23,133 nucleotides of DNA from a virus. The stretch lies in the IMG/VR virus record IMGVR_UViG_3300006917_000161, positions 1-23,133 of that record. One strand, given 5' to 3'. Both the position numbers and the translations under genes were made by a program. Each line of letters starts with the position of its first letter. Position 1 is the stretch's first letter. The notes under the pieces were generated by a model, which searched no databases, was not told where the DNA came from, and saw only the letters and a list, made by a program, of their open reading frames with translations. This document shows, piece after piece, positions 166-17,209 of this stretch.

Positions 166-1284
166 TTACTTTACCGCCAGCAGTCCTCCAGGCTTCTTTG
201 CTTGGTCAATCTTGCCCCAATCAATATCAATCGTGCCGTGATGCTCTCGTACTGCACCGGCATCAAGAGCTTCTTTAGCAAGCCGCCGCCGTTCTTCTTC
301 ATTGAATTTGCCGAACCAGTCATTGCCGTACTTTTCGCCGAAAGCTGAATAGCCCCAGATGTCTTCAGGGTTCAGGTCCGCTTCATTTCTGCTTTGGGCA
401 AATTTTACATTACCGCCATTGGCCTGTGCTTCTGCCACTAGCTGCTCTTTGCTTCTACCTCCTGATAGCTGTGGCTGCCTCGAGGCATAATCAGCCCATC
501 CAGCCACATCGCCGAGCTTGCTAAGGCGCTTGCCCTCAGTTTTCCACATATCTTTGTCGCCCATCTTATTTATCAGAGCTGCAATTGCAGGAACGCCAAT
601 TGTGGCTGCAACGCCCCAAGGCCCAAGCGCATACCCGAGCTGATTAGCGCCAAGAACACCGCCCAAACCGCCAAGTCCTGCTGTAAATGGATCGCCCTTC
701 TTAATGCCTTGATAAGCGCCATAGGCCCCAAGGCCAAGGCCAGCAGCGCCAGCCAGGTTTCCGGCCGTAGATCCTACAGTAAATAGGCCACCAGGAGCGC
801 CTTCAGCAGCATCTCCTACGTTCATTGCAGTTTCTCTGCCTAGAACCGAATTAAGGGCAGCACCAGATTCGGTCAATGGCCCCTGTAATGCTGTACTAAC
901 AGCAGGGGCCGCACTTCCGGCAGCCTGGGCAGCAGCAGAAGCACCGCTGGCAATACTATTTGCAGCCTCAGCACCGCCCTGACCTAAGCCGAGCAGCCCG
1001 AGACCTTCCTTAGCCCCTATGCTTGCTATTGTAGGGGCAGCGGCAGCTATGCCAATTGGCAGTAAAGACTCTCCAAGGCTAGGTGGAGTTACCGGCTTTT
1101 CAACTAGCCCTTCTTCTTGGTATCTTTCTAAAGTCGATTTCGGATTCTGATAATACTTATCCGTGTACGGATCATAGATGAATCCAGGCTGTTCGCCGTA
1201 CTTTTCATAATTAGCGCCAACGAACGGGTACTTTCTTCGCGAATCAGCGCCACGACCAGGATTATAACCAGCTATGCTTGGCAT
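166..1284 (-). CDS. Gly/Ala-rich virion-associated protein, possible DNA-ejection (internal) protein
   Basis: A 372-residue protein with three zones. The N-terminus is polar and Tyr/Pro-rich (MPSIAGYNPGRG). The middle, roughly residues 80-235, is very rich in Ala and Gly with long hydrophobic stretches and GLG/GAYGAY-type repeats. The C-terminal domain is charged and contains DMWKTEGKRL, NPEDIWGYSAFGEKYGNDW and EHHGTIDIDWGK. The amphipathic membrane-like centre and the place between adaptor and nozzle genes suggest an internal or ejection protein, but no enzyme motif is visible. Start: an upstream in-frame TTG exists at 1296, but ATG at 1284 overlaps the adaptor stop codon (TAATG) and has GGGA seven bases upstream, so I chose ATG. 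Its own stop is one base before the nozzle start. CDS confidence is high; function is inference. Confidence 0.8.
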   Translation of the reverse strand: MPSIAGYNPGRGADSRRKYPFVGANYEKYGEQPGFIYDPYTDKYYQNPKSTLERYQEEGLVEKPVTPPSLGESLLPIGIAAAAPTIASIGAKEGLGLLGLGQGGAEAANSIASGASAAAQAAGSAAPAVSTALQGPLTESGAALNSVLGRETAMNVGDAAEGAPGGLFTVGSTAGNLAGAAGLGLGAYGAYQGIKKGDPFTAGLGGLGGVLGANQLGYALGPWGVAATIGVPAIAALINKMGDKDMWKTEGKRLSKLGDVAGWADYASRQPQLSGGRSKEQLVAEAQANGGNVKFAQSRNEADLNPEDIWGYSAFGEKYGNDWFGKFNEEERRRLAKEALDAGAVREHHGTIDIDWGKIDQAKKPGGLLAVK

Positions 1285-2171
1285 TATATGTCCCAACTCC
1301 CATAAGGCACTCTATATCTGGGCCTAGCGCCCTTGCCGGTAAAGCTCCCGACATAGGGGCCAGTCCATCTTGATTTTGCCATGTTTAACATTCTAGCGTA
1401 ACCAGCATTCAGATCCTCGTACTCAAGGCCCTTGGCTTGCTTAATTCTCCACTTCAAGCCAGCAATCACCAGATCATCATCAAAGATGCACAAGTCTGAA
1501 TCAGCTAGAATTGTTTCGTAGGGCGAATCATAATAGGCCCAATGCGCAGTGCCGTCTGTAATATCTGAGGCAGTGGAGCTTGTGGGATTGCTTGCTGCTG
1601 AGGTGCCGGTAGTAATACAGCGATAATTGTATCCGTTCACGTTCACATAATCAGTGCCAGAGGTATAAGAAGTCGATGCCGCCCAGTCTTTCGGTTTGAA
1701 TAAATTAGATGAAACGTATTCCATGTATAGAGGCAACCCGCTTGCTGATGGAATTGGATGGATATGAAACTGCCCCGATTCATCAGAGCTTGGATTGCTA
1801 TCAGAGCCAAAGATTCTGTAAATATATTCAGTGGTAGATCCGCCAGGGCCATAAAGATAATAGGCCATGTCCTCATCAGATACGGGGCCAATTAGCAAAT
1901 CTTCTGTATCCGTATTTATCTGCGTTCCCATTAGTGCAGAATAATAATCCTTGGGCAATTGATACCGGTACCGCCCTGATGTAATGGAAATAGAATAAGT
2001 TTTTTTCTGCTGCGGGAACACTCTCTGATTTCTAAGCGCACGGCACTCTGCATAAAGCAAATGCTTCAGCTGAAGTACTGCGGAATCAGTAGAGGCAGCC
2101 ATCGCAGTAGGGGCTGGATGCCCTATCTCATAACATGCTGCTTGAACTAGCTCTAAAACTGTTTTGCTCAT
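1284..2171 (-). CDS. Head-tail adaptor protein, SU10 adaptor-like, with an inserted carbohydrate-binding-like module
   Basis: A 295-residue protein predicted to join portal and tail nozzle in the virion. Residues 1-160 start TVLELVQAACYEIGHPAP, followed by helices (VLQLKHLLYAECRALRNQ) and a beta region with YQLPKDY and GPVSDEDM. The C-terminal part, about 218-295, has the helix ending LVIAGLKWRIKQAKGLEY. This N- and C-terminal pattern is typical of the adaptor family of podoviruses such as phage SU10. Between them, residues 163-215 read like a small chitin-binding-type module: W163 at the start, Y169, G172, a YNYRCITTGTS core, then DGTAHWAYY. That module looks inserted just before the C-terminal helices. 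ATG at 2171 follows the previous stop with a 1-nt gap; the stop overlaps the next start. Family call is moderately firm; the insert's binding function is inference. Confidence 0.75.
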   Translation of the reverse strand: MSKTVLELVQAACYEIGHPAPTAMAASTDSAVLQLKHLLYAECRALRNQRVFPQQKKTYSISITSGRYRYQLPKDYYSALMGTQINTDTEDLLIGPVSDEDMAYYLYGPGGSTTEYIYRIFGSDSNPSSDESGQFHIHPIPSASGLPLYMEYVSSNLFKPKDWAASTSYTSGTDYVNVNGYNYRCITTGTSAASNPTSSTASDITDGTAHWAYYDSPYETILADSDLCIFDDDLVIAGLKWRIKQAKGLEYEDLNAGYARMLNMAKSRWTGPYVGSFTGKGARPRYRVPYGSWDI

Positions 2172-2619: not shown

Positions 2620-3966
2620 TTACTTATAGGTAATATTAATAAGCTGCTCGCTGGCTGCGGTCGAAGTGTTGTCTGCGTCGGTTATGCCGGTGACAATGCA
2701 ATAGCCGATTCCTGTACCAAAGTTCATGCCGACTGGAAATTGAATTGTTTGACAGCCGCCAGTAGTTCCGCCCGGTATCGCAACTCGCAGGACTGGAGTA
2801 TCGGTTCCACAGGTCGGAGCTGACGCCTTATTGTAGAGCTTTAAGTATCTAGCCGCTGCGTTGATATTACACGCATTAACTGAATAGACCGTTCCAGCAG
2901 TCGCTTTGAGGTTTGTCGAGTTGTTTGAAGCGGCAGAAATAATACTCGTTGATAACGCGCCACCGCTGGCTCCAGCCATCGGCTGAACGTAGATGCCGCC
3001 GTTGTTGTTGCTGATTAATGCCGAATAGTCTCCGTCAGTTGATGTATTGTTGTCTGTAGCAATAGCATCGGCCCTTTTTGATAGTATAGCTACTCCAGCA
3101 TCGGCGTTTGCGCTTGCGGTGTCCTCCTGCTTTAGTAGTGATGACGCTGCATTTTTTTGAGTCCAGAAGTTAATATCGGCAATCGTGGCTCCATAGGTGT
3201 TAACTGCCATTGGAGTATAATCTCCGACTGCGTTGGATAGGTTTGTCTGGGTAGTTACATCTATCGCGACACCTAAATTTTGCACACCCGCATCACCTGA
3301 TGTGTGTGCATTATCTTCGCTCCTCGGTAGTCCCGCGGTTGGCGAAATTAGCAGATAGCCCTGCGGGTCTGTTGCAATCGGAGTATAGTCACCTTCTGCG
3401 GCAAGCGTATTTCTATTTGCGTTGGCCACGGCCAAACTCATCACGCCATACGCCGTACTCGCATGAACCGCATCCTCCTGCTGGAACAAATTACTCCCAT
3501 CGCCGCCAGATTTAGGAACAACAACAACGCCACCCGCGCTATCTAGCTGCGGAGACATCACCCGCCCGAAATAGAACAGGTCGGCCACGTTTGGCGTATT
3601 GCGTAGCGGTGGCGAAATTGTAAACGAGTTAGTAGAGGTCGAAGTAACGTAACCCATGCCAGCACGAGCAGTTGAGCTAGGCCCAAACATTACCCAATCG
3701 CCAACTTTTACAGAATGGGCAGTTGCGTTAATTGTGGTCGTAGTACTACCAGCCTCAGCATTATCATTGCCGCCATTAACAAACCCGCTAAACGGAGCCT
3801 GTTCCATCTGCTGTCCAAATCTATCCGTGGAAAGTGCAGTCGAAGTGCCAGCTACAGTCGCCAGTGCCTTGTTTGCCTCATTGTTGATTGCGGGATTCTG
3901 CCCCATGGCAAAAACCGGAAACAAAACTAGCGCCAGGAGGCTTGCAATTTTACTTTTAATGTTCAT
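2620..3966 (-). CDS. Exported repeat protein: signal peptide, three EDxxH repeats, beta C-terminal domain
   Basis: A 448-residue protein beginning with a clear Sec signal peptide: Lys at 4 and 6, hydrophobic core 8-19, and an AMG cleavage site before Gln23. Residues 75-135 form a beta-rich domain. Three degenerate repeats follow at about 163-209, 216-263 and 280-329, each with an ED dyad, an H/A-rich turn, a YGV/DAGV strand, then GDYxxxxxxxxG. The C-terminal domain (about 336-448) is strand-rich and holds the only four mature cysteines, suggesting two disulfides formed in the periplasm. Similar repeat and C-terminal modules are common in environmental phage structural proteins (recalled, not searched). 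No Shine-Dalgarno precedes ATG 3966; the leader is U-rich and follows directly on a terminator hairpin. It may be a fiber, decoration or secreted phage protein. Confidence 0.75.
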   Translation of the reverse strand: MNIKSKIASLLALVLFPVFAMGQNPAINNEANKALATVAGTSTALSTDRFGQQMEQAPFSGFVNGGNDNAEAGSTTTTINATAHSVKVGDWVMFGPSSTARAGMGYVTSTSTNSFTISPPLRNTPNVADLFYFGRVMSPQLDSAGGVVVVPKSGGDGSNLFQQEDAVHASTAYGVMSLAVANANRNTLAAEGDYTPIATDPQGYLLISPTAGLPRSEDNAHTSGDAGVQNLGVAIDVTTQTNLSNAVGDYTPMAVNTYGATIADINFWTQKNAASSLLKQEDTASANADAGVAILSKRADAIATDNNTSTDGDYSALISNNNGGIYVQPMAGASGGALSTSIISAASNNSTNLKATAGTVYSVNACNINAAARYLKLYNKASAPTCGTDTPVLRVAIPGGTTGGCQTIQFPVGMNFGTGIGYCIVTGITDADNTSTAASEQLINITYK

Positions 3967-3979
3967 ATCAATCTAACAA

Positions 3980-4014
3980 AATAAAAAAGGAGCGCGGGTT
4001 AGGGTTCCCGCGCC
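3980..4014 (-). terminator. Intrinsic terminator, leftward, inside the late operon
   Basis: Read on the minus strand, GCGCGGG (4013-4007) pairs perfectly with CCCGCGC (3998-3992) around an 8-nt loop, and is followed by TCC and six T (3989-3983), then ATTTTG. A 7-bp all-G/C stem plus a T tract is a strong rho-independent terminator. It lies only about 15 bases before the ATG of the next gene, so downstream tail genes need readthrough, antitermination or a hidden promoter. Confidence 0.8.
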
Positions 4015-4060
4015 CCAGGGTCAAGTGTGTCCGTCAGTATGGAGAACATTGTCATTTTGT

Positions 4061-5281
4061 TTACGAGCAAATAATCGCGTTTGAGGCTGTGGCGTAACAA
4101 ACGTGAACCACAATGCCAGTAACTAAAGTGCAAGCTGCATCTGCCGCGCCGCCGTTACAGGTGCCGCCTGATACCGCATAGACTTTAGGAACGCCCGCTG
4201 TAGTGCTTAACAGGAAGTGAACATCGCCAGCAGTAAGAGATGGGAACTTCCAGCCCACTGTGCCGTTAGCGCCAGTGATCTGGTGGAACATCTTAGAAGC
4301 GCTTAAAGCTGCGGCATCTGCTACCGTGGTGCCAGCTCCTGCTACGGCTTCGACGTTGGTCGAAACATTGAGCACGTTTGTGGGAAGCTGTAGAGCACTG
4401 GTCGTAATCACAGCAGCGTTCACTCCAGCCACCGTGAAAATATGGCCGTCTCCAGTCCCAGCGTTATAAGTAATATCAGATCCGCCGCTGACCTCCTCTC
4501 CTGGCAAGGTGATAGATGCGCCTCTAGTGCCGCCATCAGCGCCACCGCCAGCGAGGATTAGGCTGCTATCGTCGTCGCCGTCGGAAGTGGAGGCCCTAAT
4601 CGTAAGCTGCTGTACTGCTGTTGTTCCACCGTCACCGAAAGTTAAAGAAAGGGCGGTATCCGATGCGGCTGCAAATGTGAGCAGCCGATTGGAATCCTGT
4701 GCCCCATAAACTATTAGCGAATCGACAGGAAGTATCTGCACATCTGCGCCGCTTGCGCTGCCAGAGCTTAAGTTTAGATTTCCAGTTGAAGTTGCCTCAT
4801 TGCCGTATAGTTGAATATATGCGCCGCGTGATGCACTGACTGAGCCGCCAGCAGTTAGCTGGAGAACTGAATCGTCGTCAGCATCTGAAGTAGACGCAGA
4901 TACCGTTAGGATTTGCGCCGCCGTAGTACCAGCATCGCCGAACTTCATAGCCAAAGCCGTATCGCTTGCAGCGGTGAAGCTAATCAATCGGCTAGCATCA
5001 TCCTCAAGCTGCAAGATAAGCTCATCAGAAGCGCTGGAGTTGATTACGGTGTTGTCGGAGGCATCAACTTTAATCAGGTTAATGTCAGCTGAATTAGCTG
5101 CGTTTCTGCCCTTAATGTAAGCGTTGTTCGTCGCAACAGAGCCAGCTGGCAGCAGAGTAGAAATATAATCAGCAAGTTCTGAGCGCATACCCAGACCAAC
5201 TAAATCATTTGCAACTGTTTGCCCGTGTGCAGCAGTGCTAAGTCCTAAAACTAATCCGATTGTCAATAGGAGTTTTTTCAT
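4061..5281 (-). CDS. Exported beta-repeat protein with signal peptide and tandem ~86-residue repeats
   Basis: A 406-residue protein with a textbook Sec signal peptide: KK at 2-3, hydrophobic core LLLTIGLVLGL, and AHG before Gln21. The mature part is Ser/Thr/Ala/Gly-rich. Two tandem repeats cover about 97-183 and 198-282; both have an RL[IL][ST]F opening, then AASDTAL, FGD.GTTA, ASTSD and a DDDS turn. The end (about 325-406) resembles the C-terminal parts of fiber-type proteins and has all four cysteines of the protein (C375, C384, C395, C405). ATG 5281 has a strong Shine-Dalgarno (GGAAGGAAAG). An intrinsic terminator follows the gene. Fiber-like beta architecture is inferred from the repeats; the signal peptide would send it to the periplasm or outside, which is unusual for a virion part. 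Confidence 0.75.
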   Translation of the reverse strand: MKKLLLTIGLVLGLSTAAHGQTVANDLVGLGMRSELADYISTLLPAGSVATNNAYIKGRNAANSADINLIKVDASDNTVINSSASDELILQLEDDASRLISFTAASDTALAMKFGDAGTTAAQILTVSASTSDADDDSVLQLTAGGSVSASRGAYIQLYGNEATSTGNLNLSSGSASGADVQILPVDSLIVYGAQDSNRLLTFAAASDTALSLTFGDGGTTAVQQLTIRASTSDGDDDSSLILAGGGADGGTRGASITLPGEEVSGGSDITYNAGTGDGHIFTVAGVNAAVITTSALQLPTNVLNVSTNVEAVAGAGTTVADAAALSASKMFHQITGANGTVGWKFPSLTAGDVHFLLSTTAGVPKVYAVSGGTCNGGAADAACTLVTGIVVHVCYATASNAIICS

Positions 5282-5305
5282 CTTTAGCTTTCCTTCCTTC
5301 TATCC

Positions 5306-5662
5306 TTAAACAGCCTCATCACCAATTGATTGAACCGGCAGTGGCTCAACTTCTACCTTTACTTCTACTGCCACCGGCTCTGGCTCAACTGGCTTAGAGA
5401 TAAAAACCTTTTTTCCTGGTTCTGCTTTTGCTTCTGCAAATAGAGCATCCTTGTCGGCCTCTAATAGAGCATCGAACTCAGCTACCTCTTTCGGGTTCTG
5501 CTTTCTAATGTCCTCATCAATATGGCCTTCCTGAATCAGCTTCGGCCTTAGTTGACCGGCACCGTCTACGACTACATCTTCAGACTCGAATTTATAAAAT
5601 TCTTTAATCTGAAGTAGCCCGTTGGCGCACTTTTCAGCTTGAATATAAAATTGCTTCTGCAT
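5306..5662 (-). CDS. Small acidic protein, unknown
   Basis: A 118-residue protein. The N-terminal half is mixed (MQKQFYIQAEKCANG, then VVVDGAGQLRPKLIQEGHI), and an acidic helix-prone stretch follows (EVAEFDALLEADKDALFAEA). The tail is Pro/Glu/Val-rich and probably disordered (EPVAVEVKVEVEPLP). No catalytic motif or membrane segment is seen. The ATG overlaps the stop of the upstream AT-hook gene (TAATG), so the two are translationally coupled and may act together. It sits between head genes and an exported fiber-like gene. I do not recognise the family. Confidence 0.65.
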   Translation of the reverse strand: MQKQFYIQAEKCANGLLQIKEFYKFESEDVVVDGAGQLRPKLIQEGHIDEDIRKQNPKEVAEFDALLEADKDALFAEAKAEPGKKVFISKPVEPEPVAVEVKVEVEPLPVQSIGDEAV

Positions 5663-6462
5663 TATTCGTCTTCCTCAATTTCATCTAGCATTGCTTCGAT
5701 GTCAGCATGTTGCTCGGCTGTAGCTTTCTTAGGTCTGCCCCTGCCTCGCTTCTCTGAAGTTTTTGCAGTTCCATTTACCCGTTCAGAAAGTGCTTCAAGT
5801 TTTGCAAATGCATCTTCAAGCGACCGCTGTAGCTGTGCATTAGTTTGCTTCAGCTGAACGATTTCATCAGTGGTTTCTTTGATATGCTCCATTGGAGCCT
5901 CGCGATTAACAAAAGCGATTGCTTTGCGATAAAGCTCAACAAACCGCTTTGGAAATCTGCCTTCGATTCTATCAGCAGGAGCCGAGGCAAGCTGATGAAC
6001 AGTCCAGAAACCTTCGCTATTTAGTGTTTTAATTTCTCCGCTGCTGGCTTCATTCCATCGCTCAAATGGCAAGCCCTGATTTCCAAGGCCAGCCTTCCAG
6101 CGCAGATAAGCCTCTTTGTAAAGGCCACCAACGCATTCTCCGAGCTTATTGAATTTCAATAGCTGTGGAGGCAAAAATCTAACTCTTTCTACGATTCTAT
6201 TCTTCTTATCTTTTGTCCACTCAATCATCTCAATCGGATCTGTCATCAGCATATCTGCTGCTTCAGATTTGATTTTGTTTTCTTCATCGTGGATATAAAA
6301 CCGAAAAGCAACGCCCTTATCATATCCAGCTAGTTCAAAGCTGGTAACAGATGCGCCCTGACCTTGATTGATTGTCTTTGCAACGATTCCCTGCCGAGCC
6401 AGATCTTCCCTCGCTTGAGCTGGCAGTGGAAATTGATCTAAGAAATTTAACGGACTTGTCAT
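5662..6462 (-). CDS. Coiled-coil protein with a C-terminal AT-hook, unknown function
   Basis: A 266-residue cytoplasmic protein. Residues 1-180 look globular and mixed alpha/beta (FELAGYDKGVAFRFYIHDEE; EMIEWTKDKKNRIVERVRFL; RFPKRFVELYRKAIAFVN). About 195-230 is a heptad-like coiled coil (DEIVQLKQTNAQLQRSLEDA), then RGRGRPKK at 239-246, a canonical AT-hook core (GRP flanked by basic residues), and a strongly acidic end (IEAMLDEIEEDE). The AT-hook suggests minor-groove binding of AT-rich DNA, and the coiled coil suggests oligomers. It lies just past the post-capsid terminator, with AGGGGAAA directly before ATG 6462. It could be a head-completion, DNA-organising or regulatory protein; the globular domain is not recognised. 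Confidence 0.75.
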   Translation of the reverse strand: MTSPLNFLDQFPLPAQAREDLARQGIVAKTINQGQGASVTSFELAGYDKGVAFRFYIHDEENKIKSEAADMLMTDPIEMIEWTKDKKNRIVERVRFLPPQLLKFNKLGECVGGLYKEAYLRWKAGLGNQGLPFERWNEASSGEIKTLNSEGFWTVHQLASAPADRIEGRFPKRFVELYRKAIAFVNREAPMEHIKETTDEIVQLKQTNAQLQRSLEDAFAKLEALSERVNGTAKTSEKRGRGRPKKATAEQHADIEAMLDEIEEDE

Positions 6463-6476
6463 TTTCCCCTATCTCC

Positions 6477-6502
6477 AAAAAAGGGGGCCATTGCTGGCCC
6501 CC
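6477..6502 (-). terminator. Intrinsic terminator after the capsid genes, leftward
   Basis: On the minus strand GGGGGCC (6502-6496) pairs perfectly with GGCCCCC (6489-6483) around AGCAAT, followed by six T (6482-6477). It lies 6 nt after the stop of the 163-residue protein. Placement right after the major capsid gene pair matches the common phage strategy of making extra capsid mRNA, with partial readthrough to the later genes. Confidence 0.85.
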
Positions 6503-6508
6503 ATCCTA

Positions 6509-7000
6509 TTAGTCATGAGCCATGATCACGCCAGCGGTAAGGATACCAGAGGCAACAATCGTAACTCTTGTGCTTGTTACACCAGCATCAATAGTTTTTA
6601 CACCATCCAAAACGAATGATGAGCTATTAGTGCCAGGAATTCCGGCATTGGCCGTGGTGTAAAGAATATCGGTAGCAGCAAAGCTGTTTTCGATAATTGC
6701 TTCAAATTCACCGTAGCCAACAAAGAACCAGCCGTAATAGTTATCAGTACCATCGCGGCAAGCGATTCCTATATTTTTCCAGTTTGTGCCCGGAGTACCG
6801 CAGAGGGCAGTAGTCATCGGTGTGCAATCATAAGTTGAATCGGTGGAGATAATGCTCCAGCGACCAGCTGTATGTGCGCCGTTGTACTGTCCGTAGCGAT
6901 ATTGTCTTCCGAGAACGTCTACATAAAGCGATCCGACCTTGCACAGAGGTGTTGAACTCTGTGAAAGTAAATCGAATGCCATTGCCTGTTGTCCAGCCAT
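6509..7000 (-). CDS. Small protein after the capsid gene, possible head decoration protein
   Basis: A 163-residue protein directly downstream of the major capsid gene (19-nt gap) with a good Shine-Dalgarno (AGGAG) before ATG 7000. It reads as beta-rich: GSLYVDVLGRQYRYGQYNG, GWFFVGYGEFEAIIENSF, STRVTIVASGILTAGVIM. There are four cysteines and no signal peptide. It is transcribed with the capsid gene and cut off from later genes by a terminator, so it is probably made in large amounts. Those are the features expected of a decoration or cement protein, but this is context-based inference and the family is not recognised. Confidence 0.7.
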   Translation of the reverse strand: MAGQQAMAFDLLSQSSTPLCKVGSLYVDVLGRQYRYGQYNGAHTAGRWSIISTDSTYDCTPMTTALCGTPGTNWKNIGIACRDGTDNYYGWFFVGYGEFEAIIENSFAATDILYTTANAGIPGTNSSSFVLDGVKTIDAGVTSTRVTIVASGILTAGVIMAHD

Positions 7001-7019
7001 GTTTTTATTCTCCTATTCT

Positions 7020-8024
7020 TTAGTCAAAACCTACCCAGCAGCGTTTTGCAAAAGCGCCGATGGTGCAAGTTGCCATAGTGAACATGAGCCGTGATACAGC
7101 AGCCTGATCATTTGCATTTACAGGCTCAAGCATGTCGAACTCAGCTTTCTTATGGAATACAATGTTGAATCCACCTTCTTCTACGTTCAACAGATACGTT
7201 CTAGTAGCTGTCTGTGTGCTGAAGCCGGAGTAGTTAATACCTCCAGATAGGTACATTGGGATTCCGCGATAGTAGATCTTATTATGACCTACTCTTGCAG
7301 TGTCTTTTTCATGCGTAATCATCTGAAGCGCACGAGTTGAAGAACTCAAAAAGCCCCAGTGAGTCTGGCCCAAAAGACCAAGCTGCACAGTCGGCATTGA
7401 ATTAATCATCGTGGCATCAATTCCTTGATCCAGGAATCGAGTTACGTTACCAGCATCAACAGATCCATCAGACCATGAAGATGCAGTATTGAAGGCTTGG
7501 TTTCTAAACCAAACAGCATCAGAGCTTGCTCGGTTAATGCCGCCAACGGTTCCAGTAGTAGGAGTTGTTGAAACGTGCGATGCCAAGCCAGCCATCTGCA
7601 AGCCGCCAGAGCCGGTACCGGCAGATAGAACGCCTTCATGGAATTTGTTCATCTGGGTTGACTCAAGCACTTTAAATTTGCTTGAAATGATTGGGATATA
7701 CTGCTCTGGGCCATCATTCTGATACTGTTCAGCCAGGGTGAATACAACCGAACCAAGCAGGTAAAACCAGCTAAATTCAGCAGCATCTAGGATATTCTGG
7801 TCTGTTAATGCAACAGCCCCAGATGGTCCTACCCAGTCTACGGTATCGTTCTGATCCGAGAGTGCTTCTTCTACCACGGAGCGACCACCAGAGACGCGAC
7901 GAACGCCTCCGTGTTCTTCCATGTGCTTAATGACCGGCAAGTTGTCGCGAACGGCATCTTTTGCCTTTTTGCTTCTACGTCTGCCAGTCGCGGTGACTAA
8001 TTGTCCTAAACCTACGTCTGCCAT
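7020..8024 (-). CDS. Major capsid protein
   Basis: A 334-residue protein, usual size for an HK97-fold coat protein. It starts with a basic segment (GRRRSKKAKDAVRDNLPVIK), followed by the central helix region (AEFSWFYLLGSVVFTLAEQY) and a long beta/loop part. The C-terminal core includes YYRGIPMYLSGGI and FNIVFHKKAEFDMLEPVN, and ends with an Ala/Met-rich helix-strand. It is located immediately downstream of the scaffold gene (8-nt gap) and before a small accessory head gene and a terminator. The Shine-Dalgarno GAGG overlaps the end of the scaffold gene. Role: forms the icosahedral shell around the scaffold. Fold assignment is by pattern and gene order. Confidence 0.85.
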   Translation of the reverse strand: MADVGLGQLVTATGRRRSKKAKDAVRDNLPVIKHMEEHGGVRRVSGGRSVVEEALSDQNDTVDWVGPSGAVALTDQNILDAAEFSWFYLLGSVVFTLAEQYQNDGPEQYIPIISSKFKVLESTQMNKFHEGVLSAGTGSGGLQMAGLASHVSTTPTTGTVGGINRASSDAVWFRNQAFNTASSWSDGSVDAGNVTRFLDQGIDATMINSMPTVQLGLLGQTHWGFLSSSTRALQMITHEKDTARVGHNKIYYRGIPMYLSGGINYSGFSTQTATRTYLLNVEEGGFNIVFHKKAEFDMLEPVNANDQAAVSRLMFTMATCTIGAFAKRCWVGFD

Positions 8025-8031
8025 GTATTAT

Positions 8032-9201
8032 TTATCCTCGTAATAATTCCTCCAGGGCTATTCGAGCAGATTGCTCTGGAGTTTCGTTTGCTGATACAGC
8101 AATTTCAGATTTTGTCGCTGGCATTGCTTGACTTGTTCTGCCACGCACTGAAACAGGCTGGATCACTCTATTTTGTGATTGATTATTACCGGCAACGAGT
8201 CTGGTTTGATTAAGTCCGTTGGAATTTCCTTCAGAATAGGGCTTACCGGTTAAATCTGCCCAGGCTTTTTTTAGTGCCTGTGCTGCGGTAATGCCAGGAA
8301 TAGTTCCAAGGTACGCAGAAACCAGTGGTTCTGTGCGCCTGAGAAAATCGCCATCATGTAGTTCAGGGTATTTGTACTGACCTACGGCGTTCTTCTCATT
8401 CACTACTGTTTCAAATTCTGAAACAGTTTTAGCTACTGCCTCCTGCTCTTGCTGTTGTTTGGCTGTAGCTTTTTCGGATTCTATGGCATTTAGTCTCTTT
8501 TGCAAAGCCAGAAACTCAGGGTGCCCTGAAATATTTGCCAGCTGGCCCTGACTTGGCGCTCCATCATCATCAGCAAGAGTTTCTAAGTTAATCTCTAAAT
8601 CATTCGCAAGTGCTTTAAATGCCGCAACTTTTGTTTTTGGATCTGTAAGTTTTTGCTGCGCTGCGCAAAGTGCAGCAAGGCCAGCAGAGAGAGTGAACCC
8701 CCGTTCTGCAAACACACCGGCAAAGGGCTGCACGGCTTCTTTTATCGCCCTGGTTTCTTGTAATTCTCTCGATAGTTCTTGCTGCGTTCTTGTAAAGTGC
8801 GCTTGATGCTCTTTGAACATCCTAGCAACAGCTGGCTTAAGCTGCTTGGGTAGCTTGTTAAAAAGCTCCTTTTCCTTGGCGCTTAATCGCTGCGGTGGTT
8901 CAAAATCAGCTGAATCTGGCTGCTGTTGCTGCGCTTGGGCTTCAGTTCTAACTACCTTTACTTGCTTTTCATCAGACTGGCCCTCGGTGGCTGGGGCGTC
9001 TTCTGATTGCGCACTTTTATCCCCATCAATCGCGTTTTTCTTGAGTTCTTCAAGCGCTGCCCTAGCTGACTGTTCAGGCGTTTCATCTTTGGCTGGCTCC
9101 TCTTTGGCTAAATTTTTAGCATCTTCAACAATGGCATCAACTTCAGATGCTTCATCTTCTATTGTACCTTCATTTTCTAATACGGACTCTTGATTTTCCA
9201 T
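8032..9201 (-). CDS. Capsid scaffolding protein
   Basis: A 389-residue, highly charged, helix-prone protein. It is acidic at the N-terminus, Gln/Glu-rich in the middle (KEKELFNKLPKQLKPAVARM; FKEHQAHFTRTQQELSRELQ), with a coiled coil around residues 240-270 and a more basic region near 320-370. Composition, length and placement just before the capsid gene identify it as a scaffold. An unusual feature is the motif ETPEQSARxALEEL, found once at residues 40-53 and again at 373-386, the last residues but three. The two DNA copies use mostly different synonymous codons. Start ATG 9201 has GAGAGGAAA right upstream and overlaps the previous gene by 25 nt. In such systems the scaffold C-terminus usually contacts the coat protein, which may explain the conserved end motif. 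Confidence 0.8.
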   Translation of the reverse strand: MENQESVLENEGTIEDEASEVDAIVEDAKNLAKEEPAKDETPEQSARAALEELKKNAIDGDKSAQSEDAPATEGQSDEKQVKVVRTEAQAQQQQPDSADFEPPQRLSAKEKELFNKLPKQLKPAVARMFKEHQAHFTRTQQELSRELQETRAIKEAVQPFAGVFAERGFTLSAGLAALCAAQQKLTDPKTKVAAFKALANDLEINLETLADDDGAPSQGQLANISGHPEFLALQKRLNAIESEKATAKQQQEQEAVAKTVSEFETVVNEKNAVGQYKYPELHDGDFLRRTEPLVSAYLGTIPGITAAQALKKAWADLTGKPYSEGNSNGLNQTRLVAGNNQSQNRVIQPVSVRGRTSQAMPATKSEIAVSANETPEQSARIALEELLRG

Positions 9202-9617
9202 TTTCCTCTCCAGTTTCTTCGTTCACGTTCATGCACAGCTTTTTCTTCTTCAGAGAATTGAACCCGATCATATTTAATGTCGTAGTAACTTTTCTCTATA
9301 TCTTCTTTAATTTCCTTATCAATTTCCTCCTGGCTCTTGCCCTTGGCCCGCTCTGCATCTTTGAGATGCTCGCCACCAGTTTCTCTAAACCCATGTTCTT
9401 TTAAATGCCTCCTGTAGGCAGATTTACTCGTAAAAACTTTGCCCTCTGCTGTTGCATGGCTAACAGTAGGCTCAATTTCATCTGTAAATACTGCTGGCGC
9501 ATCTGCATTCAGCTTTCTTGGCTTCTCGCACGGAATGAGCTTCTTTGATTCATCATCGAATCGAAATCTGCCCCGTTCTCCAGTCCCAAAGCTAAGAGTT
9601 TTCTTCTTGGGTGCCAT
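9177..9617 (-). CDS. Basic/charged small phage protein upstream of scaffold, unknown
   Basis: A 146-residue charged protein. It begins MAPKKKTLSFGTGERGRFRF, contains FTSKSAYRRHLKEHGFRETG in the middle (a segment I associate with small proteins found next to scaffold genes in podoviruses), and ends with charged helices (EEIDKEIKEDIEKSYYDIKY; EEKAVHERERRNWRGKWK). The single H-x4-H region lacks cysteines, so it is not a zinc finger. It overlaps both neighbours (26 nt upstream, 25 nt downstream), which points to coupled translation; no strong Shine-Dalgarno is visible before ATG 9617. A head-assembly role is inferred from position only. Confidence 0.75.
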   Translation of the reverse strand: MAPKKKTLSFGTGERGRFRFDDESKKLIPCEKPRKLNADAPAVFTDEIEPTVSHATAEGKVFTSKSAYRRHLKEHGFRETGGEHLKDAERAKGKSQEEIDKEIKEDIEKSYYDIKYDRVQFSEEEKAVHERERRNWRGKWKIKSPY

Positions 9618-10011
9618 TTTTTACGAACTTTGCCATCAGTTTTTCAAATGACTTCGCCGGTGCCGCTGACTTGCCATCAGCGCCAAGCAGTCTGGTTTTT
9701 TCTACCGTCTTTTCAAACCCAACCATTGCAAGCGCATCATCTGGATTTGGATTATTATGCGGCTGCACTACATTGAATGTCATTTCGTATGCCGTTTGGG
9801 CAAAATGCACTAGCGTTTTCATCGGCAGTGCGCAGATCAGAGAATTTCCTTCAATCTGGATTTCTACTGCTGGCACTTCCATCTTGATTGGTGTAGCTCC
9901 GTCATCTGGAGTTACTTTGACTTGCATCGTTTTGTGCATGTTATAAAGAACGGCTGCTAAGATAGCGACCGGCGATATGTGTACCTGTTGCGTTCCTGGT
10001 GCTTGTTGCAT
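9592..10011 (-). CDS. Small cytoplasmic phage protein, unknown
   Basis: A 139-residue protein. It has a strand-helix start (VHISPVAILAAVLYNMHKTM), a beta section (IKMEVPAVEIQIEGNSLICA) and a basic helical end with KSFEKLMAKFVKNG. An in-frame TTG at 10020 would add three residues, with AGGG five bases upstream. I chose ATG 10011 because the junction TAATATG with the preceding stop is the same as at two other late-gene junctions in this window. It overlaps the next gene by 26 nt. The family is not recognised; the neighbourhood suggests head assembly. Confidence 0.65.
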   Translation of the reverse strand: MQQAPGTQQVHISPVAILAAVLYNMHKTMQVKVTPDDGATPIKMEVPAVEIQIEGNSLICALPMKTLVHFAQTAYEMTFNVVQPHNNPNPDDALAMVGFEKTVEKTRLLGADGKSAAPAKSFEKLMAKFVKNGTQEENS

Positions 10012-10012
10012 A

Positions 10013-10270
10013 TTAATCAAATAGCCCTAAAAGTATTTTAATTAAAAAGTTATCTTCTTCTTCACGCATCCGTTTTAACTTCATTCGAGCGCGATGAAGA
10101 AATTCAAGCCTGTGCAAATCAGCATCTACCGGCACAGCTTGGACGGTCTTTTCTTCTTTCTTAACCTGATAAACCTTTTTCCTTTTCCGCTTAGGGGCGA
10201 CAGGAGCAGTTTCGGTTTGCCACCTATCTGCCCTGGCCCCATAGAACGGTTTTAAGAACAGAAGCAGCAC
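10013..10270 (-). CDS. Small highly basic protein, unknown
   Basis: An 85-residue protein starting with GTG at 10270, which overlaps the upstream TAG by one base (TAGTG). A short hydrophobic start (LLLFLKPFYG) is followed by a very basic stretch (KRKRKKVYQVKKEEK), a helix with HRARMKLKRMREEED, and a hydrophobic end (FLIKILLGLFD). It is coupled to the membrane-anchored protein gene before it and the 139-residue gene after it. It could bind nucleic acid or act at the inner membrane with its neighbour; nothing identifies a family. Confidence 0.55.
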   Translation of the reverse strand: MLLLFLKPFYGARADRWQTETAPVAPKRKRKKVYQVKKEEKTVQAVPVDADLHRLEFLHRARMKLKRMREEEDNFLIKILLGLFD

Positions 10271-10485
10271 TATTTTTTCTCGGCTTCTTTTACTACTGGT
10301 GCTGGAACTTCTAGTGCCTTAACTCTTGCATTCAGCTGATTTATCACTTCGCTTAGTTGCTTTAATGCTGGCTGTACATCAGCAGCAGTAAGAGCTTTTG
10401 GCATCAGGTTCAGGTGAACCGCAGCGACAAATAGAAGAACTAGCAAAAGTACTAGCCTTTCAAATGACGGTAATGGTATGTGCAT
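10270..10485 (-). CDS. Small membrane-anchored coiled-coil protein
   Basis: A 71-residue protein with one N-terminal membrane segment (residues about 10-28: RLVLLLVLLFVAAVHLNL). An amphipathic coiled-coil helix (QPALKQLSEVINQLNARVKA) and a short Pro/Lys tail follow. Two ATGs are possible. The one at 10485 has AGGAG with 8-nt spacing, whereas the one at 10491 has it only 2 nt away, so the shorter form is preferred. Layout (short N-terminus, one membrane segment, periplasmic coiled coil) resembles inner-membrane spanin subunits or small anchoring proteins. No lipobox partner is visible next to it, so spanin is only a weak suggestion. Confidence 0.6.
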   Translation of the reverse strand: MHIPLPSFERLVLLLVLLFVAAVHLNLMPKALTAADVQPALKQLSEVINQLNARVKALEVPAPVVKEAEKK

Positions 10486-10506
10486 ATACATTTCTCCTAT
10501 AAAAAA

Positions 10507-11250
10507 TCATGGCCCTTTCATCATGCCGTTACTGATGATGCTGGCATCACCGCCGTCAGCATTGATTCCAAAAGCCACACCGTACCAAGTGCGACTGGCT
10601 GAGAGTGACCAGTTAATTACGCCATCGCCGCCCATATCCTGAGTCGATACCAGCGCCCTAGTCGCGTTAGTGCCTGAGCCCTGACTTGCATTAACTCTGC
10701 TTGTTTCGCCAGAACCCACTGTTGCGGTGCTAGCGCCAGCAGCTAAATCGACGGTATAGAATCCTATGCCAGCAGCTCCGCTTGATAGTGTTGCAGATAC
10801 ACTTGGAGTGGTTGATGAGCCGTTGTTGGTTGCCACGGTTCCATTACTGACTGTGCCAGTAAATCCAATAACAGAGAGCCTTGCCGCCACACCGAATCCA
10901 GAGGCAGACTCCCAAATACATTCAAGCCGCTTAGTGCCTTTATCGGGCTTGTAAATTACAAAGACGTTTAAAAACGGACCAAAGCCCTCATTGGCGATCT
11001 CGGTCATATCGACACCCGCATAAGTGCAGGTGATGTTAAAATCTAGCCCGAGCGATTCGCCCCAGTGGACTCCTACAAAAAGTACATCTGTATGTGGGCT
11101 AACGGCGATATTGCCAGCCATCGTGAGGTTAACGCCGTCATCGAGCATTGTCGGAGATGTGCTCGTGGAATAGCGGTAGAACGTGCCGCCATAGGCCGTG
11201 TTAGCTACTAGCAGCAGCAGTGCTAGGATGCAGTTTGATAGTATGTGCAC
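10507..11250 (-). CDS. Exported beta-sandwich protein with signal peptide
   Basis: A 247-residue protein. GTG at 11250 starts a Sec signal peptide (MHILSN, hydrophobic CILALLLLVAN, AYG cleavage before Gly22). The mature part is one beta-sandwich-like unit: DVLFVGVHWGESLGLDF, CTYAGVDMTEIAN, then VFVIYKPDKGTKRLECIW, VIGFTGT, and a closing RTWYGVAFGI. This order (Y-x-G-V-x-M-T, then a Y-x-P-x-x-G turn, then the F-x-G strand) is one I associate with environmental phage tail or surface proteins. Two mature cysteines (in ITCTYAG and LECIW) could form one disulfide. The GTG start overlaps the upstream gene by 28 nt with a GGA about seven bases upstream. Destination and role are unknown. Confidence 0.7.
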   Translation of the reverse strand: MHILSNCILALLLLVANTAYGGTFYRYSTSTSPTMLDDGVNLTMAGNIAVSPHTDVLFVGVHWGESLGLDFNITCTYAGVDMTEIANEGFGPFLNVFVIYKPDKGTKRLECIWESASGFGVAARLSVIGFTGTVSNGTVATNNGSSTTPSVSATLSSGAAGIGFYTVDLAAGASTATVGSGETSRVNASQGSGTNATRALVSTQDMGGDGVINWSLSASRTWYGVAFGINADGGDASIISNGMMKGP

Positions 11251-12452
11251 GTTACGTCCAATGCTCCAGTTGTGGGTGCGCCAGAAGTTATTCGCAAATC
11301 ATCGCCATCGCCGCCTACTACGATAATGCCTGAGCCATCGCCAACAACTAAGCCACCGCCAGGGGCCACGCCAGGATGCGAAAGTGCGACAAGTGAGGTG
11401 GTTGGAGTAGTAGTTGAGCCAAGTCCGATTCGCACGGCTGTGTTAACCGTCGTTGCGTTTGAAACGGTCGCGTGACAGCTAGTGACGACGATCTTAGTCC
11501 CAGTGCTGATTGTGACCAGTGCCGTATCGGTCTGAGCCGAAGTATACTGCGCTCTAATAACCGTGGTAGCGGGTGAGCCAGCAATGACGAAGGGTAGGCC
11601 TTCGCGATTAGCATAGAGCCTAGTAACGTCTGCATCAGCTACGGCGGTTGGCAGTGAGCCATGAGCCTTAGTTCTAGCGCCTAGAATTATCGGGTTATTT
11701 GTTGTCGTGTCGGCTGTGTCATGGGCCAGCTCGCCCTGAACCGTCCAACCAGTATTGCCAGCATTTGCGGCAGACCCCTGCGCGACCATCGCATGGCCTG
11801 AGCCGTTCATTAACAAAGAAATAGCACTCGTAGGAGCGCCCACAGTATCGACACCGCCGATGATAACAGGCTGCGATCCATAGGTAGCTGCATCAGCAGC
11901 ACCGACCACTGGAAGAACTGGATTGATTACAGAGACAGCGGAAGTAAAACCTGTAGCAACGGCTTTAACCGATATTTCTGCCACTTGTGGATAGGTTGCG
12001 CCCTGGGCTGTGGCTCCGTTCTGATACACGAAGTAGACATAGCGACCGCCCAAAGGCAAGAGCTTTCCCGCTGTCGGATTGCCGTCTGTTAATACGTTAT
12101 AAACAGCATAGTAGTTAGTTAGGCCAGAGCCATCGCCTGGATCGTTATAAGCAGTGTTTGCACCATCGCGGCTCCACATTGCATAAAGCACGCCAGAGGT
12201 TGCGCCAGGACTGTTATCCACTACGGAAACCAGAATGTTTCCATAGCCGTTTAAATCGTAGTACGAGCCGCGAGAGCCAGTTGGCGAGAATACTTTATAG
12301 GCATTAGCTCCAAGAGCTGCGCCCCCAGTAGAGGCGAAGTCGGCCAGCGTTTTCGCTGGAATATTTGCAATAGTGCCGCCGCCAGAGGAGGGCTGCGCTG
12401 TTGCTACTGAAGCACAGAATAAAAGTGCAGCTAGAAAAATTCGCTTTATCAT
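11223..12452 (-). CDS. Exported multi-domain beta protein with signal peptide
   Basis: A 409-residue protein with Sec signal peptide MIKRIFLAALLFCASVATAQ (ATA cleavage before Gln20). An N-terminal beta domain covers about 30-165 (ILVSVVDN, GRYVYFVYQNG). A repeat-like module follows at about 175-295, with NPVLPV, PVIIGGVDTVGAP, then AHDTADTTTNNPIILGART and ADVTRLYANREGLPFV. That HDxxDxxxNPI...AD motif recalls repeats in podovirus structural proteins. The C-terminal beta domain (about 300-409) holds the only two mature cysteines (VTSCHA and VTCTYY). ATG overlaps the upstream stop (ATGA), a tight coupling with the 139-residue gene. Virion fiber, decoration or secreted factor are all possible. 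Confidence 0.75.
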   Translation of the reverse strand: MIKRIFLAALLFCASVATAQPSSGGGTIANIPAKTLADFASTGGAALGANAYKVFSPTGSRGSYYDLNGYGNILVSVVDNSPGATSGVLYAMWSRDGANTAYNDPGDGSGLTNYYAVYNVLTDGNPTAGKLLPLGGRYVYFVYQNGATAQGATYPQVAEISVKAVATGFTSAVSVINPVLPVVGAADAATYGSQPVIIGGVDTVGAPTSAISLLMNGSGHAMVAQGSAANAGNTGWTVQGELAHDTADTTTNNPIILGARTKAHGSLPTAVADADVTRLYANREGLPFVIAGSPATTVIRAQYTSAQTDTALVTISTGTKIVVTSCHATVSNATTVNTAVRIGLGSTTTPTTSLVALSHPGVAPGGGLVVGDGSGIIVVGGDGDDLRITSGAPTTGALDVTCTYYQTAS

Positions 12453-12869: not shown

Positions 12870-15311
12870 TTATCCTAACGGTAGCAGTCCTGACGGTGCC
12901 TGACCTGGGGCTTCTTCAACTTCTAGCTTTGTGACTGTGCCATCTTCACGAATTATTGTAGCTGTCTTTTTCCCCGGCTTTGGCATTTCAATATTAAAAT
13001 TCATTGGCGGCATGGCCGGTGCTGCTACTTGAATTATCTTTGGCTCTGGCGCCTGTGGTGTATTAGATGATTCGATTTGCATCCGAACGCCTTCAAGGTC
13101 AGCCTCTTGCTTTAATCTCATTTCCTCGAGCATCGCTTCCTGGGCATTGATCTGTGCCTTAAATTGTTCAATGGCTATGCGCTGGTTTTCCTGCATCAGA
13201 AGCGCCTCGTCAAGAGCAGATTTCATCTGAAGTTCATACTCAGACAGCCGGTTTTCGCTCTGTGCCTTAAATGTCTCAATCTGGGCATGAACGCCCTTGA
13301 TATCCAGCTCTCTTGCAGCCAGGGCAGCATCAACTTGCTGCTTCTGCGCTTGGAGCTGGTTCTTCTGCCCTGCAACTTCTACCTTAAGCATTTCCACATT
13401 CGGTTCAGGTGGTGGCGGTGGTGCTTTCCTTCTCTTTTCCAAATCAGATACGGCACGTTTTATCATGTTCTCTGCTTGGCTAGATCCGCCCATGCTTTCA
13501 AGTACAGCAAGCAGCATGGAAAGGGCAGTCTGCATAAATTCATAATTTTCAATCGAGCCGATAGTAGCCAGCCCTTGAATCACTGTATCTGCAATCATCT
13601 TCTGCCGGGCCATCTCCCTTGCTTCATCTCTGAAGGAAGTAGAATCGGTTTCAAAATCAATTGATACCAATCTGGTTTCATCGTCCTTCAGCCTAGCCAG
13701 TGCTTCTGGGAATAGCTCATAGTGGCTTGGCTTGGCTGGTGTACCTTGAGGATTTTCTTCTGATGGCGGCTCTGCTGGTGTACCCCTTTCAAAGAATTCA
13801 AGGCCTACAATCTTGGCAATCTTATCTGCGCTAAAAACTTTCAGCGCCATATCAAGCATTCCCTGGGCTAAATCCCTGGCCAGGTCTACCATTTGCTTTT
13901 TATTGTACTTGAATCGGTCATGGGCTGAATCAGCTGCAATGTTCTGCCCGGTAGCAGTTTCTTCGGGGTTTAAAATGCCACGAAGGATTTCTGGAACGCC
14001 AATCCACTCGTAGAAATTATTCTTGAAGTGATTCTCCAGCTCGATGGCTTCTGCAATTGCATCAACTAATTCTTTAACCGGCAAATAGTGGATACATTCC
14101 TCAATGCCGCCCTTATCCAGAATGTCAGCAAGCTCAGATACAATGATAAATTCTGCGCTTTTCAGATTATTCAATGCAGCTACAACTTCAGCACTAAGGC
14201 CATAGACTAAGGCTCTGCGCTTAACAGCATCGACTAAAGTAAAGACACGTTCATATAATTTATTCAGCTGGTTTGCTGTAGATTCTAGGTAAACAAATAC
14301 TGGAGTTGGATATAGGCTCTTGCGCCTTCTGTTCTGCAAGGCAAATTTCGGGCATGGGAAAAAGTTTTGCAGCTGATATGGATCATCTTCAACTGCCAGG
14401 AAATCATCTTTGTAGCTCTCACAAACCCAGTAAATCTTCTTTGATTTCTTGCAGTAGATTTCATACCCGTGCAGCTGAAGTCCTGGGCTATCTACATCTG
14501 TTTCCTTGCCATCATCATCAGAATCAGCGTTAGAATTACCAAAATAGCCTGATTTAACATATGGCAAGCTCTTGGTACCATCTGGGTTGAATCTGGCTTC
14601 TGCTTCTTCTTTATCTAGGCAAAATTTAAATCCAATCTCAGTAATTTCATCGAAGGTCTTTGCTTCAGGGCTGTGGATAACTTCATCAAACGGGGCAGGG
14701 GCAGCAAAGACTCGCTGGCTTCTCTCATCAACAGCCTCTTGCTCATAGAAGAATTGGCCTTCAGCCTCCAGGACTTCACCGCCATAAACTGAGCCGTCTT
14801 CCAGCATAAATTGGTTTTCAATCTTGGTCAGCGGAACTCTTTGGCTAGCATTTGTAGCTGTATAAATGATTTGCGCAGTGGCTTTGGCTGCGTGCATAAA
14901 GTCATTGCGAGCAGCAACCATGGTGTCATCAAAATTGCCATTGTCGATAAGGTACTGCCCAAGCCGTTCAGCAATTAGGCCCATAGTTAAAGCCAGCGGG
15001 TTCTCTATTCCGTATCTGCGCCGAGCAATTACTTTCGGAGTTCTGGAATAATAGGCTGGCTCAACTGTGGTACTTGCTACCCAATAAATCGGATAGCTGG
15101 CGTGACCGGCACCAGTAGTATCATCAGTAGATCGCTTAGAATCCAACTCATAAGCAGCATAGGCAGCCTTGCTATCTTTCCAATGTAAATCGGCAGCCTT
15201 CTTTGCAGCAGTTACCCATTTAAGCCAATAATTTACTTTGCTTCTACCAGCAGGGGTATTTTCATCGTCCGTAGCTGCTGCTGCATCGACTTTCTTATCT
15301 TCGGGTAACAT
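12870..15311 (-). CDS. Portal protein with long C-terminal coiled coil (P22-type size)
   Basis: An 813-residue portal, the dodecameric DNA gate at the capsid vertex. The N-terminal half has typical portal features (YWLKWVTAAKKAADLHWKDS; SYPIYWVASTTVEPAYYSRT) and a wing/stem region (FFPCPKFALQNRRRKSLYPT; STANQLNKLYERVFTLVDAV). It also has NFYEWIGVPEILRGI followed by ATGQNIAADS, the common helix-turn of the clip region. After a Pro run near residue 645, a long Gln/Glu-rich coiled coil extends about 100 residues, comparable in position with the barrel helix of P22 portal. It overlaps the terminase gene by 17 nt. Identity is firm by motifs, length and order; the barrel comparison is inference. 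Confidence 0.9.
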   Translation of the reverse strand: MLPEDKKVDAAAATDDENTPAGRSKVNYWLKWVTAAKKAADLHWKDSKAAYAAYELDSKRSTDDTTGAGHASYPIYWVASTTVEPAYYSRTPKVIARRRYGIENPLALTMGLIAERLGQYLIDNGNFDDTMVAARNDFMHAAKATAQIIYTATNASQRVPLTKIENQFMLEDGSVYGGEVLEAEGQFFYEQEAVDERSQRVFAAPAPFDEVIHSPEAKTFDEITEIGFKFCLDKEEAEARFNPDGTKSLPYVKSGYFGNSNADSDDDGKETDVDSPGLQLHGYEIYCKKSKKIYWVCESYKDDFLAVEDDPYQLQNFFPCPKFALQNRRRKSLYPTPVFVYLESTANQLNKLYERVFTLVDAVKRRALVYGLSAEVVAALNNLKSAEFIIVSELADILDKGGIEECIHYLPVKELVDAIAEAIELENHFKNNFYEWIGVPEILRGILNPEETATGQNIAADSAHDRFKYNKKQMVDLARDLAQGMLDMALKVFSADKIAKIVGLEFFERGTPAEPPSEENPQGTPAKPSHYELFPEALARLKDDETRLVSIDFETDSTSFRDEAREMARQKMIADTVIQGLATIGSIENYEFMQTALSMLLAVLESMGGSSQAENMIKRAVSDLEKRRKAPPPPPEPNVEMLKVEVAGQKNQLQAQKQQVDAALAARELDIKGVHAQIETFKAQSENRLSEYELQMKSALDEALLMQENQRIAIEQFKAQINAQEAMLEEMRLKQEADLEGVRMQIESSNTPQAPEPKIIQVAAPAMPPMNFNIEMPKPGKKTATIIREDGTVTKLEVEEAPGQAPSGLLPLG

Positions 15312-16896: not shown

Positions 16897-17209
16897 GGAA
16901 TTCAGGAATCAATGGCGCACCGTTCTTGCCTGTATGTTCAATTTCTTGCTTCTCTTTCCAGCCCATTCTGCACTTGGCCCAGAAGATTGCGGCAGTTAGA
17001 TTTGTTTGCGCTTGCTGGTACAGGAATCTGCCGACTGTGGCATTGGCTTTGATTGCGCCAAGCTCCAATTCTTCGGGAAAGTATTTGCGCAGAGTCTTTT
17101 CGTCGCAGCCAATCACCTTTGCAATATCTTTCTGAGGAACCCCAACAGCAGCCATTGCTTGAACTAGCGACCGATCTTTATCTGTGGGACTAAAGGGCTT
17201 TTGTGCCAT
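16853..17209 (-). CDS. terS: Terminase small subunit
   Basis: A 118-residue DNA-recognition subunit of the packaging motor. Residues 10-45 carry a helix-turn-helix (LVQAMAAVGVPQKDIAKVIG, then CDEKTLRKYFPEEL), followed by the oligomerisation helices (ANATVGRFLYQQAQT; AAIFWAKCRMGWKEK). The AIFWAK...GWKE signature is typical of a common small-terminase family. A good Shine-Dalgarno (AAGGAAAG) precedes ATG 17209. The start lies 17 nt after a tRNA-like element, and the C-terminus overlaps terL. Packaging specificity (cos or pac) cannot be read from the sequence. Confidence 0.92.
   Translation of the reverse strand: MAQKPFSPTDKDRSLVQAMAAVGVPQKDIAKVIGCDEKTLRKYFPEELELGAIKANATVGRFLYQQAQTNLTAAIFWAKCRMGWKEKQEIEHTGKNGAPLIPEFHVNILKIGTGSDSK

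Follow-up and report, generated by a model that had tools for sequence, protein, structure and literature searches.

The window analysed here, the whole 23,133-nucleotide stretch of IMG/VR virus record IMGVR_UViG_3300006917_000161, belongs to a tailed phage sampled from the environment and carries in its late operon four genes whose products (W409, W247, W406 and W448, named after their lengths in amino acids) begin with predicted Sec signal peptides and have even numbers of cysteines in their mature parts (Table 1). An initial annotation proposed that these proteins are exported and form periplasmic disulfides, and comparative data from other phages now strongly support this: two domains shared with W448 and W406 have a particular cysteine pair only in copies that also have a signal. 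The signals are very probably genuine and the proteins adapted to an oxidising compartment; W247 has the weakest signal, and the same is likely for it, with less assurance.

Signal peptides of the four late proteins

The coordinates and reading frames first given for the four genes are correct. The description of their N-termini as positively charged and hydrophobic applies to W409, W406 and W448, which combine a charged n-region, a hydrophobic h-region and small residues at -3 and -1, as expected for Sec export and signal peptidase I, and which do have the reported Gln at +1. As regards charge it does not extend to W247, in which the h-region and the -1/-3 residues fit signal peptidase I but no Lys or Arg precedes the hydrophobic core. 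Because of this, and because its GTG start overlaps the upstream gene by 28 nt, the W247 signal ranks last of the four. Signal peptidase I would cut at the predicted sites listed in Table 1.

Signals were scored with a weight matrix built from 30 textbook Escherichia coli signals, whose leave-one-out minimum is 12.7; W409 (17.7), W247 (15.3) and W406 (13.7) score above this minimum and W448 (11.9) slightly under it. The remaining 19 late-strand genes score at most 2.6, except for a 73-amino-acid membrane protein (9.2). As background, 1.3% of 617 internal 40-mers exceed 8, and no more than 2 per 1000 composition shuffles attain the observed scores. No RR of the twin-arginine (Tat) type (SRRxFLK-like) occurs in any of the four signals, and no protein has the +1 Cys of a lipobox ([LVI][ASTVI][GAS]C), the h-region cysteines of W409 and W247 coming after LLF and LSN; with these motifs absent, Tat and lipoprotein export were ruled out. 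The four mature proteins also contain no clearly hydrophobic segment that could act as a later membrane anchor (best 19-mer means 1.2-1.65).

It is very improbable that the start codons were misassigned, or that the likeness to signals arose by chance, with the true starts lying downstream. W448 does have an in-frame Met21 at its predicted cleavage site and no clear Shine-Dalgarno sequence before the first ATG. However, a strong AAGGAAGG-type site lies just upstream of the signal-coding start of W406, signals persist in diverged relatives, which makes a start-codon artefact unlikely, and the choice of start could not explain the cysteine linkage described below.

W448, W406 and W409 have no confident family in PHROG or Pfam, a match of W406 to PF12219 falling under that family's cut-off. 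For W409 and W247 no relatives were found outside near-identical contigs, so that their signals stand outside the conservation test.

Linkage of signal and cysteine pair in two domains

The C-terminal domain of W448 is widespread in phages. With tblastn, this 110-amino-acid domain was found in late genes of the cultured phages Cr30, KSC, S2B, Tweety19, S-SRP01, DB2 and PBR31, all of these copies being without signal and having 0-2 cysteines; another part of W448 matches a protein of the uncultured phage ctLwi270 that has a signal-type N-terminus and is encoded directly behind the portal gene. A profile scan of viral contigs, from which the best 80 of at least 583 matches were taken, was joined with 80 matches from a second scan with Cys in the pattern, and gave 120 distinct copies after removal of redundant entries, of those lacking a complete N-terminus and of one copy that was truncated. 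Signal and cysteine pair occur together in 25 copies (in three of which the signal lies below the scorer's cut and was assigned by eye), the signal alone in 3, the pair alone in none and neither in 92. The pair, at two fixed columns, is thus present in 25/28 signal-bearing against 0/92 signal-less copies (Fisher 8e-23, uncorrected for kinship). The first scan alone, made with a pattern free of Cys, gave 9, 1, 0 and 58 copies in the same four classes. Two of the three signal-bearing copies that lack the pair, L126 and L138, keep the second cysteine and have the first relocated to another loop. A tree built with the cysteines masked shows four changes of the signal, three of which coincide with the only three changes of the pair: in a 21-row clade, in a 5-row clade and in the window alone. 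The fourth change of signal is that of L072, without Cys.

The C-terminal domain of W406 behaves likewise. Its terminal cysteine pair is found in all five signal-type copies (the window, L206, L018, L208 and L211; two of these N-termini lie below the scorer's cut and were assigned by eye) and in none of about 20 signal-less copies. Cys375 and Cys384 of the window protein are replaced by Val and Phe in both L018 and L206, the pair having been lost jointly. In L070, L018 and L206, the gene at the position of W406 encodes a signal-bearing homologue, and among these relatives the signal sequences have diverged yet been retained, while the mature domain is conserved. L070, with the gene order of the window, has in the W406 slot a gene with a signal and eight cysteines, and in the W448 slot the bare domain with neither signal nor Cys. 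Between these two genes (L070 5678-5959) lies a gene for a 93-amino-acid protein with a lipobox-like LSGC, possibly an o-spanin or an exported lipoprotein.

Homologues beginning after the signal segment, named in the initial annotation as evidence that would tell against export, do occur for the shared domains. Since these signal-less copies also lack the cysteine pair, they favour export instead of refuting it.

Cysteine parity and sets of exported genes

The mature cysteine counts first reported, 4, 4, 2 and 2 (W448, W406, W247 and W409), are correct if the one cysteine in the h-region of W409, and likewise that of W247, is not counted. Taken from four proteins, this evenness is weak evidence, because it would arise by chance once in 16 times and because the non-exported neighbours of 163, 129 and 295 amino acids are also even; the argument was rejected in this form, and parity was instead followed over 65 distinct signal-bearing genes in 35 loci (window included) that had been selected for signal-bearing domain genes. 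Across these many phages, even counts do serve as a sign of disulfides, being found in 60 of the 64 signal-bearing genes with a non-zero mature count and in 98 of 200 signal-less genes with Cys at the same loci. Without the domain genes used for selection the figures are 35/38 and 87/177. Disulfide bonding in the mature proteins would be in keeping with these counts.

Exported genes also cluster, since signal-bearing genes other than the selection domain genes make up 39/280 in the 35 loci against 18/660 where the domain gene has no signal. On a 73-kb contig (L122 6911-14315), at least six genes with signals follow the portal and Mu-F-like genes in an almost unbroken series, which includes a beta-helix protein, a pectate-lyase-like protein and a protein with 34 cysteines. 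Three adjacent signal-bearing late genes are found at L211 5523-7306 (on the same contig as L244 9674-11457). To judge from these loci, sets of predicted exported late proteins are recurrent in uncultured tailed phages. A cleavage site of the AxA-Gln type is present in 41/62 signal-bearing genes of the 35 loci, and this predominance, of about two thirds, may indicate a common host group.

It is improbable that the hydrophobic N-termini escape cleavage and serve, entirely within the cytoplasm, to anchor the proteins to the virion or to an assembly chaperone. Most structural proteins of tailed phages are indeed assembled in the cytoplasm, and the n-region of W247 lacks charge. Against this stand the cysteine pairs, which are never seen without the N-terminal segment, a link that holds for two unrelated domains and about three branches, as well as the even counts in 60/64 genes and the AxA-Gln type sites in 41/62.

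Fibre and spike domains

The fibre-like beta body ascribed to the four proteins is borne out by structure models for two C-terminal domains, those of W406 and W448. The W406 domain matches the Solidus_gp83 tailspike (Z 10.1, 82 residues aligned, 2.2 A), CBA120 TSP4 (8.8), the KP1 baseplate cup (8.4), the Pa223 capsid spike (7.8), T4 gp9 (7.7) and T4 gp10 (6.9); searched with profile A7, the PDB held no match to it at the sequence level. The W448 domain is modelled by AlphaFold as a jelly roll at a predicted local distance difference test score (pLDDT) of 93.1, with its best fold match, at Z 7.5, to the Bacillus endospore appendage Ena; XepA and a Bdellovibrio fibre tip also match. No family is claimed for it, because a Z of 7.5 is common among beta sandwiches. 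W247 matches the 'minor tail protein' family PHROG 553 over residues 41-226 (E 1.5e-9).

In the L211 set, the middle gene encodes a complete small tail fibre with a Peptidase_S74 chaperone domain and two mature cysteines (PF13884, 1.7e-12; PHROG tail fiber, 1.9e-22); PF13884 has no match in the four window proteins and was found in L211 only. Other signal-bearing relatives are like PHROG virion structural proteins 6002 and 10356, or contain a Gly-rich domain or LamG, Pect-lyase_RHGA_epim or ArabFuran-catal domains. A function as fibres or spikes fits this domain content, with its tailspike/baseplate-type fold, S74 tail fibre and virion-structural PHROGs, and the assignment of the four proteins to the fibre, spike or virion-structural kind is supported.

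Fate of the exported proteins

The initial annotation named three possible fates for the proteins: host-surface proteins, secreted carriers and parts that virions acquire at lysis. The four genes would be translated late, alongside the capsid and tail genes. Directed by a cleavable N-terminal signal, their products would pass through SecYEG and be cut by signal peptidase I, to fold and form disulfides in the periplasm, an oxidising compartment. Upon lysis by holin and endolysin, the exported proteins would meet the DNA-filled particles assembled in the cytoplasm, and at least some of them would attach as external fibres or decorations. This whole chain, from fibre or spike appendages made in the periplasm to the joining of some of them to virions after lysis, is a plausible reading that we hold tentatively, the final attachment being its most conjectural step.

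Several observations weigh against it. L072 is a true exception, with a signal present and no cysteine pair. Only about three independent joint gains are available, and a kinship-corrected sign test on independent pairs is powerless with so few events, for which reason the Fisher values are not free of kinship. None of the 19 bacterial-genome matches, obtained with profile A3 as A2 was too divergent, has a signal, and no signal-bearing copy of the L104 protein occurs among 50,697 cultured-phage records. We know of no tailed phage in which periplasmic proteins find the virions after lysis. The L206 and L211 phages own cytoplasmic fibre- or spike-like genes behind the portal in addition to their exported proteins; export is therefore not required for owning fibres, and the idea that the exported proteins are these phages' sole fibres was dropped.

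Nearly as likely as attachment to virions is a role outside them. The proteins would again be exported and disulfide-bonded, and would serve, for example, as receptor covers against superinfecting phages, in binding or cutting surface polysaccharides or as fibres left free when the cell lyses, virion fibre and glycan-binding domains having been recruited and given a signal. All the evidence for export, from the linkage of the cysteine pair to parity, is shared by this alternative, and the glycan-type domains of exported relatives (LamG, Pect-lyase_RHGA_epim and ArabFuran-catal) and the separate cytoplasmic fibre-like genes retained by some phages agree with it. There are also precedents in the S74 phage-like fibres that Bdellovibrio exports to its own surface (PMC10769870) and in phage proteins exported outside the virion, such as Lom (PMC12309495). 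The genes sit, however, inside the head/tail assembly block and not in early or moron positions, and signal-less copies of the same domains occupy similar late positions. Moreover, the mature proteins have neither a lipobox nor a later hydrophobic segment, so that retention at the surface would need a partner.

Returning to attachment at lysis, a wider proposal can be made, more tentative again than either reading of the four proteins. Many uncultured tailed phages may assemble in two compartments, with DNA-filled capsids built in the cytoplasm and disulfide-stabilised fibres or spikes in the periplasm, to be joined at lysis; sets of virion domains would have switched compartment repeatedly, gaining signal and cysteine pair jointly each time.

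The late block and its neighbourhood

On the minus strand of the window, confident PHROG or Pfam matches identify TerS, TerL, the portal, the major capsid protein (MCP) and a head-tail adaptor. The portal and MCP share 21-32% of their residues with those of Mx9, BUCT555, Ruegeria 45A6 and Bradyrhizobium ppBjS10J-1; homologous portal and MCP make up an Mx8-like podovirus core whose order is kept in the window, and by these matches the core of the window phage is podovirus-like. The podoviruses Mx8, Mx9, BUCT555 and 45A6 have a late gene order similar to that of the window; in the late blocks of BUCT555, 45A6 and Mx9, the same scorer showed no convincing signal-bearing fibre-like genes. A near-identical 25.5-kb contig continues the block with a holin-like gene and with the gene of a large protein that includes a transglycosylase domain; no additional fibre gene is recognisable in the part of this contig that was read.

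Table 1. Features of the window discussed in the text
Feature	Position	Strand	Basis and remarks
W409, exported late protein, 409 amino acids, second gene behind portal	11223..12452	-	Open reading frame; signal score 17.7; mature Cys326, Cys402
W409 signal peptide, MIKRIFLAALLFCASVATA, predicted cut before QP	12396..12452	-	Score; no twin-Arg or lipobox on inspection
W247, late protein, 247 amino acids, GTG start, 28-nt overlap with W409	10507..11250	-	Open reading frame; mature Cys75, Cys111
W247 putative signal peptide, (V)MHILSNCILALLLLVANTAYG, GTG read as Met, predicted cut before GT	11188..11250	-	Score 15.3, h 3.56; n-region without Lys or Arg
W406, exported late protein, 406 amino acids	4061..5281	-	Score 13.7; Cys375, 384, 395, 405
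W406 signal peptide, MKKLLLTIGLVLGLSTAAHG, predicted cut before QT	5222..5281	-	Sequence reading and score
W406 C-terminal domain, tailspike/baseplate trimer-domain fold, all four Cys inside	4064..4360	-	AlphaFold2 pLDDT 92.5; VIA-align
W448, exported late protein, 448 amino acids	2620..3966	-	Score 11.9; Cys366, 386, 405, 423
W448 signal peptide, MNIKSKIASLLALVLFPVFAMG, predicted cut before QN	3901..3966	-	Sequence reading and score
W448 C-terminal domain, beta jelly roll, widespread in phages	2623..2961	-	Cys386 and Cys423 are the pair tracking the signal peptide
Portal protein, first of late structural block	12870..15311	-	PHROG 12082, 1.4e-86
Major capsid protein, flanked by the two exported pairs	7020..8024	-	PHROG 9953, 5.5e-41
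Head-tail adaptor with CBM5/12-like insert, downstream of second exported pair	1284..2171	-	PF24175, 8.2e-9; PHROG 6013, 1.1e-25

The insert of the head-tail adaptor resembles CBM5/12 (PF02839, 1.4e-5, just under cut-off), and a head-decoration PHROG was also matched. Between W247 and the scaffold region (10013-10491) lie two small genes, for a 73-amino-acid protein with a single transmembrane segment and a periplasmic-type helix and for an 85-amino-acid basic protein; neither has a family match, and they are possibly a spanin or a holin. Directly upstream of TerS (17190-18309), a Mom-family DNA modification protein (PF25680, 7.4e-42) adjoins a ParB_N protein. In L206/L243, the slot between portal and scaffold that holds the signal-bearing W409 and W247 genes in the window holds genes for cytoplasmic beta-rich spike-like proteins of 572 and 468 amino acids. 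In the cultured Myxococcus phage Mx8 (L012), several genes at 20782-23368, namely p64, p66 and others beside them, are signal-like; they lie outside the core late block, and the phage could offer a laboratory entry point.

Relation to known systems

In its fold, the C-terminal domain of W406 resembles the trimer domains of T4 gp9/gp10 and of CBA120 TSP4-type proteins (Z 7-10); unlike W406, those proteins lack a signal peptide, and their assembly takes place in the cytoplasm. In filamentous phages, the coat proteins pIII and pVIII are virion components that start out with Sec/YidC signal peptides and then enter the particle. Those phages, however, are inoviruses assembled at the membrane and extruded, whereas the window, which encodes a portal, a terminase and an MCP, belongs to a double-stranded DNA tailed phage.

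The mosaic adhesive trimer (MAT) proteins of Bdellovibrio bacteriovorus are phage-tail-fibre-like and beta-rich, have signal peptides, in some cases end in S74 and are exported for display on the surface (PMC10769870); such proteins can therefore be made through the envelope. Like them, the window proteins put a signal peptide on a phage-fibre-like protein, and the L211 relative has both signal and S74. The MAT superfamily is characterised by a conserved beta domain of about 130 amino acids directly after the signal. MATs are bacterial genes for prey recognition, while the window genes lie in a phage late operon beside portal and capsid. Host Sec is also used by the T4 antiholin RI, which is reported to have a cleavable signal peptide (PMC8385771), by Lom, whose gene lies between the lambda tail-spike and fibre genes (PMC12309495), and by endolysins with signal-anchor-release (SAR) or signal sequences; these proteins act in lysis control or in the host envelope and do not have fibre or spike domains.

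Phage fibre domains and Sec export by phages are already known. Their combination in a tailed-phage late block, where signal and cysteine pair were gained together more than once, appears undescribed, and the open-licence literature yielded no account of tailed phages whose tail fibres bear signals.

Implications

The textbook view places the structural proteins of tailed phages in the cytoplasm, and an export route is unexpected for parts of such phages. If sets of exported, disulfide-locked fibres are common in uncultured phages, the parts used for host recognition, the stability of phages in the environment and their use of the host envelope would need re-examination. For annotation, a signal peptide combined with an even number of cysteines in a phage late gene would mark an exported protein. 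The switch of signal and cysteines within one domain family also provides a natural experiment on how proteins adapt when they move between compartments.

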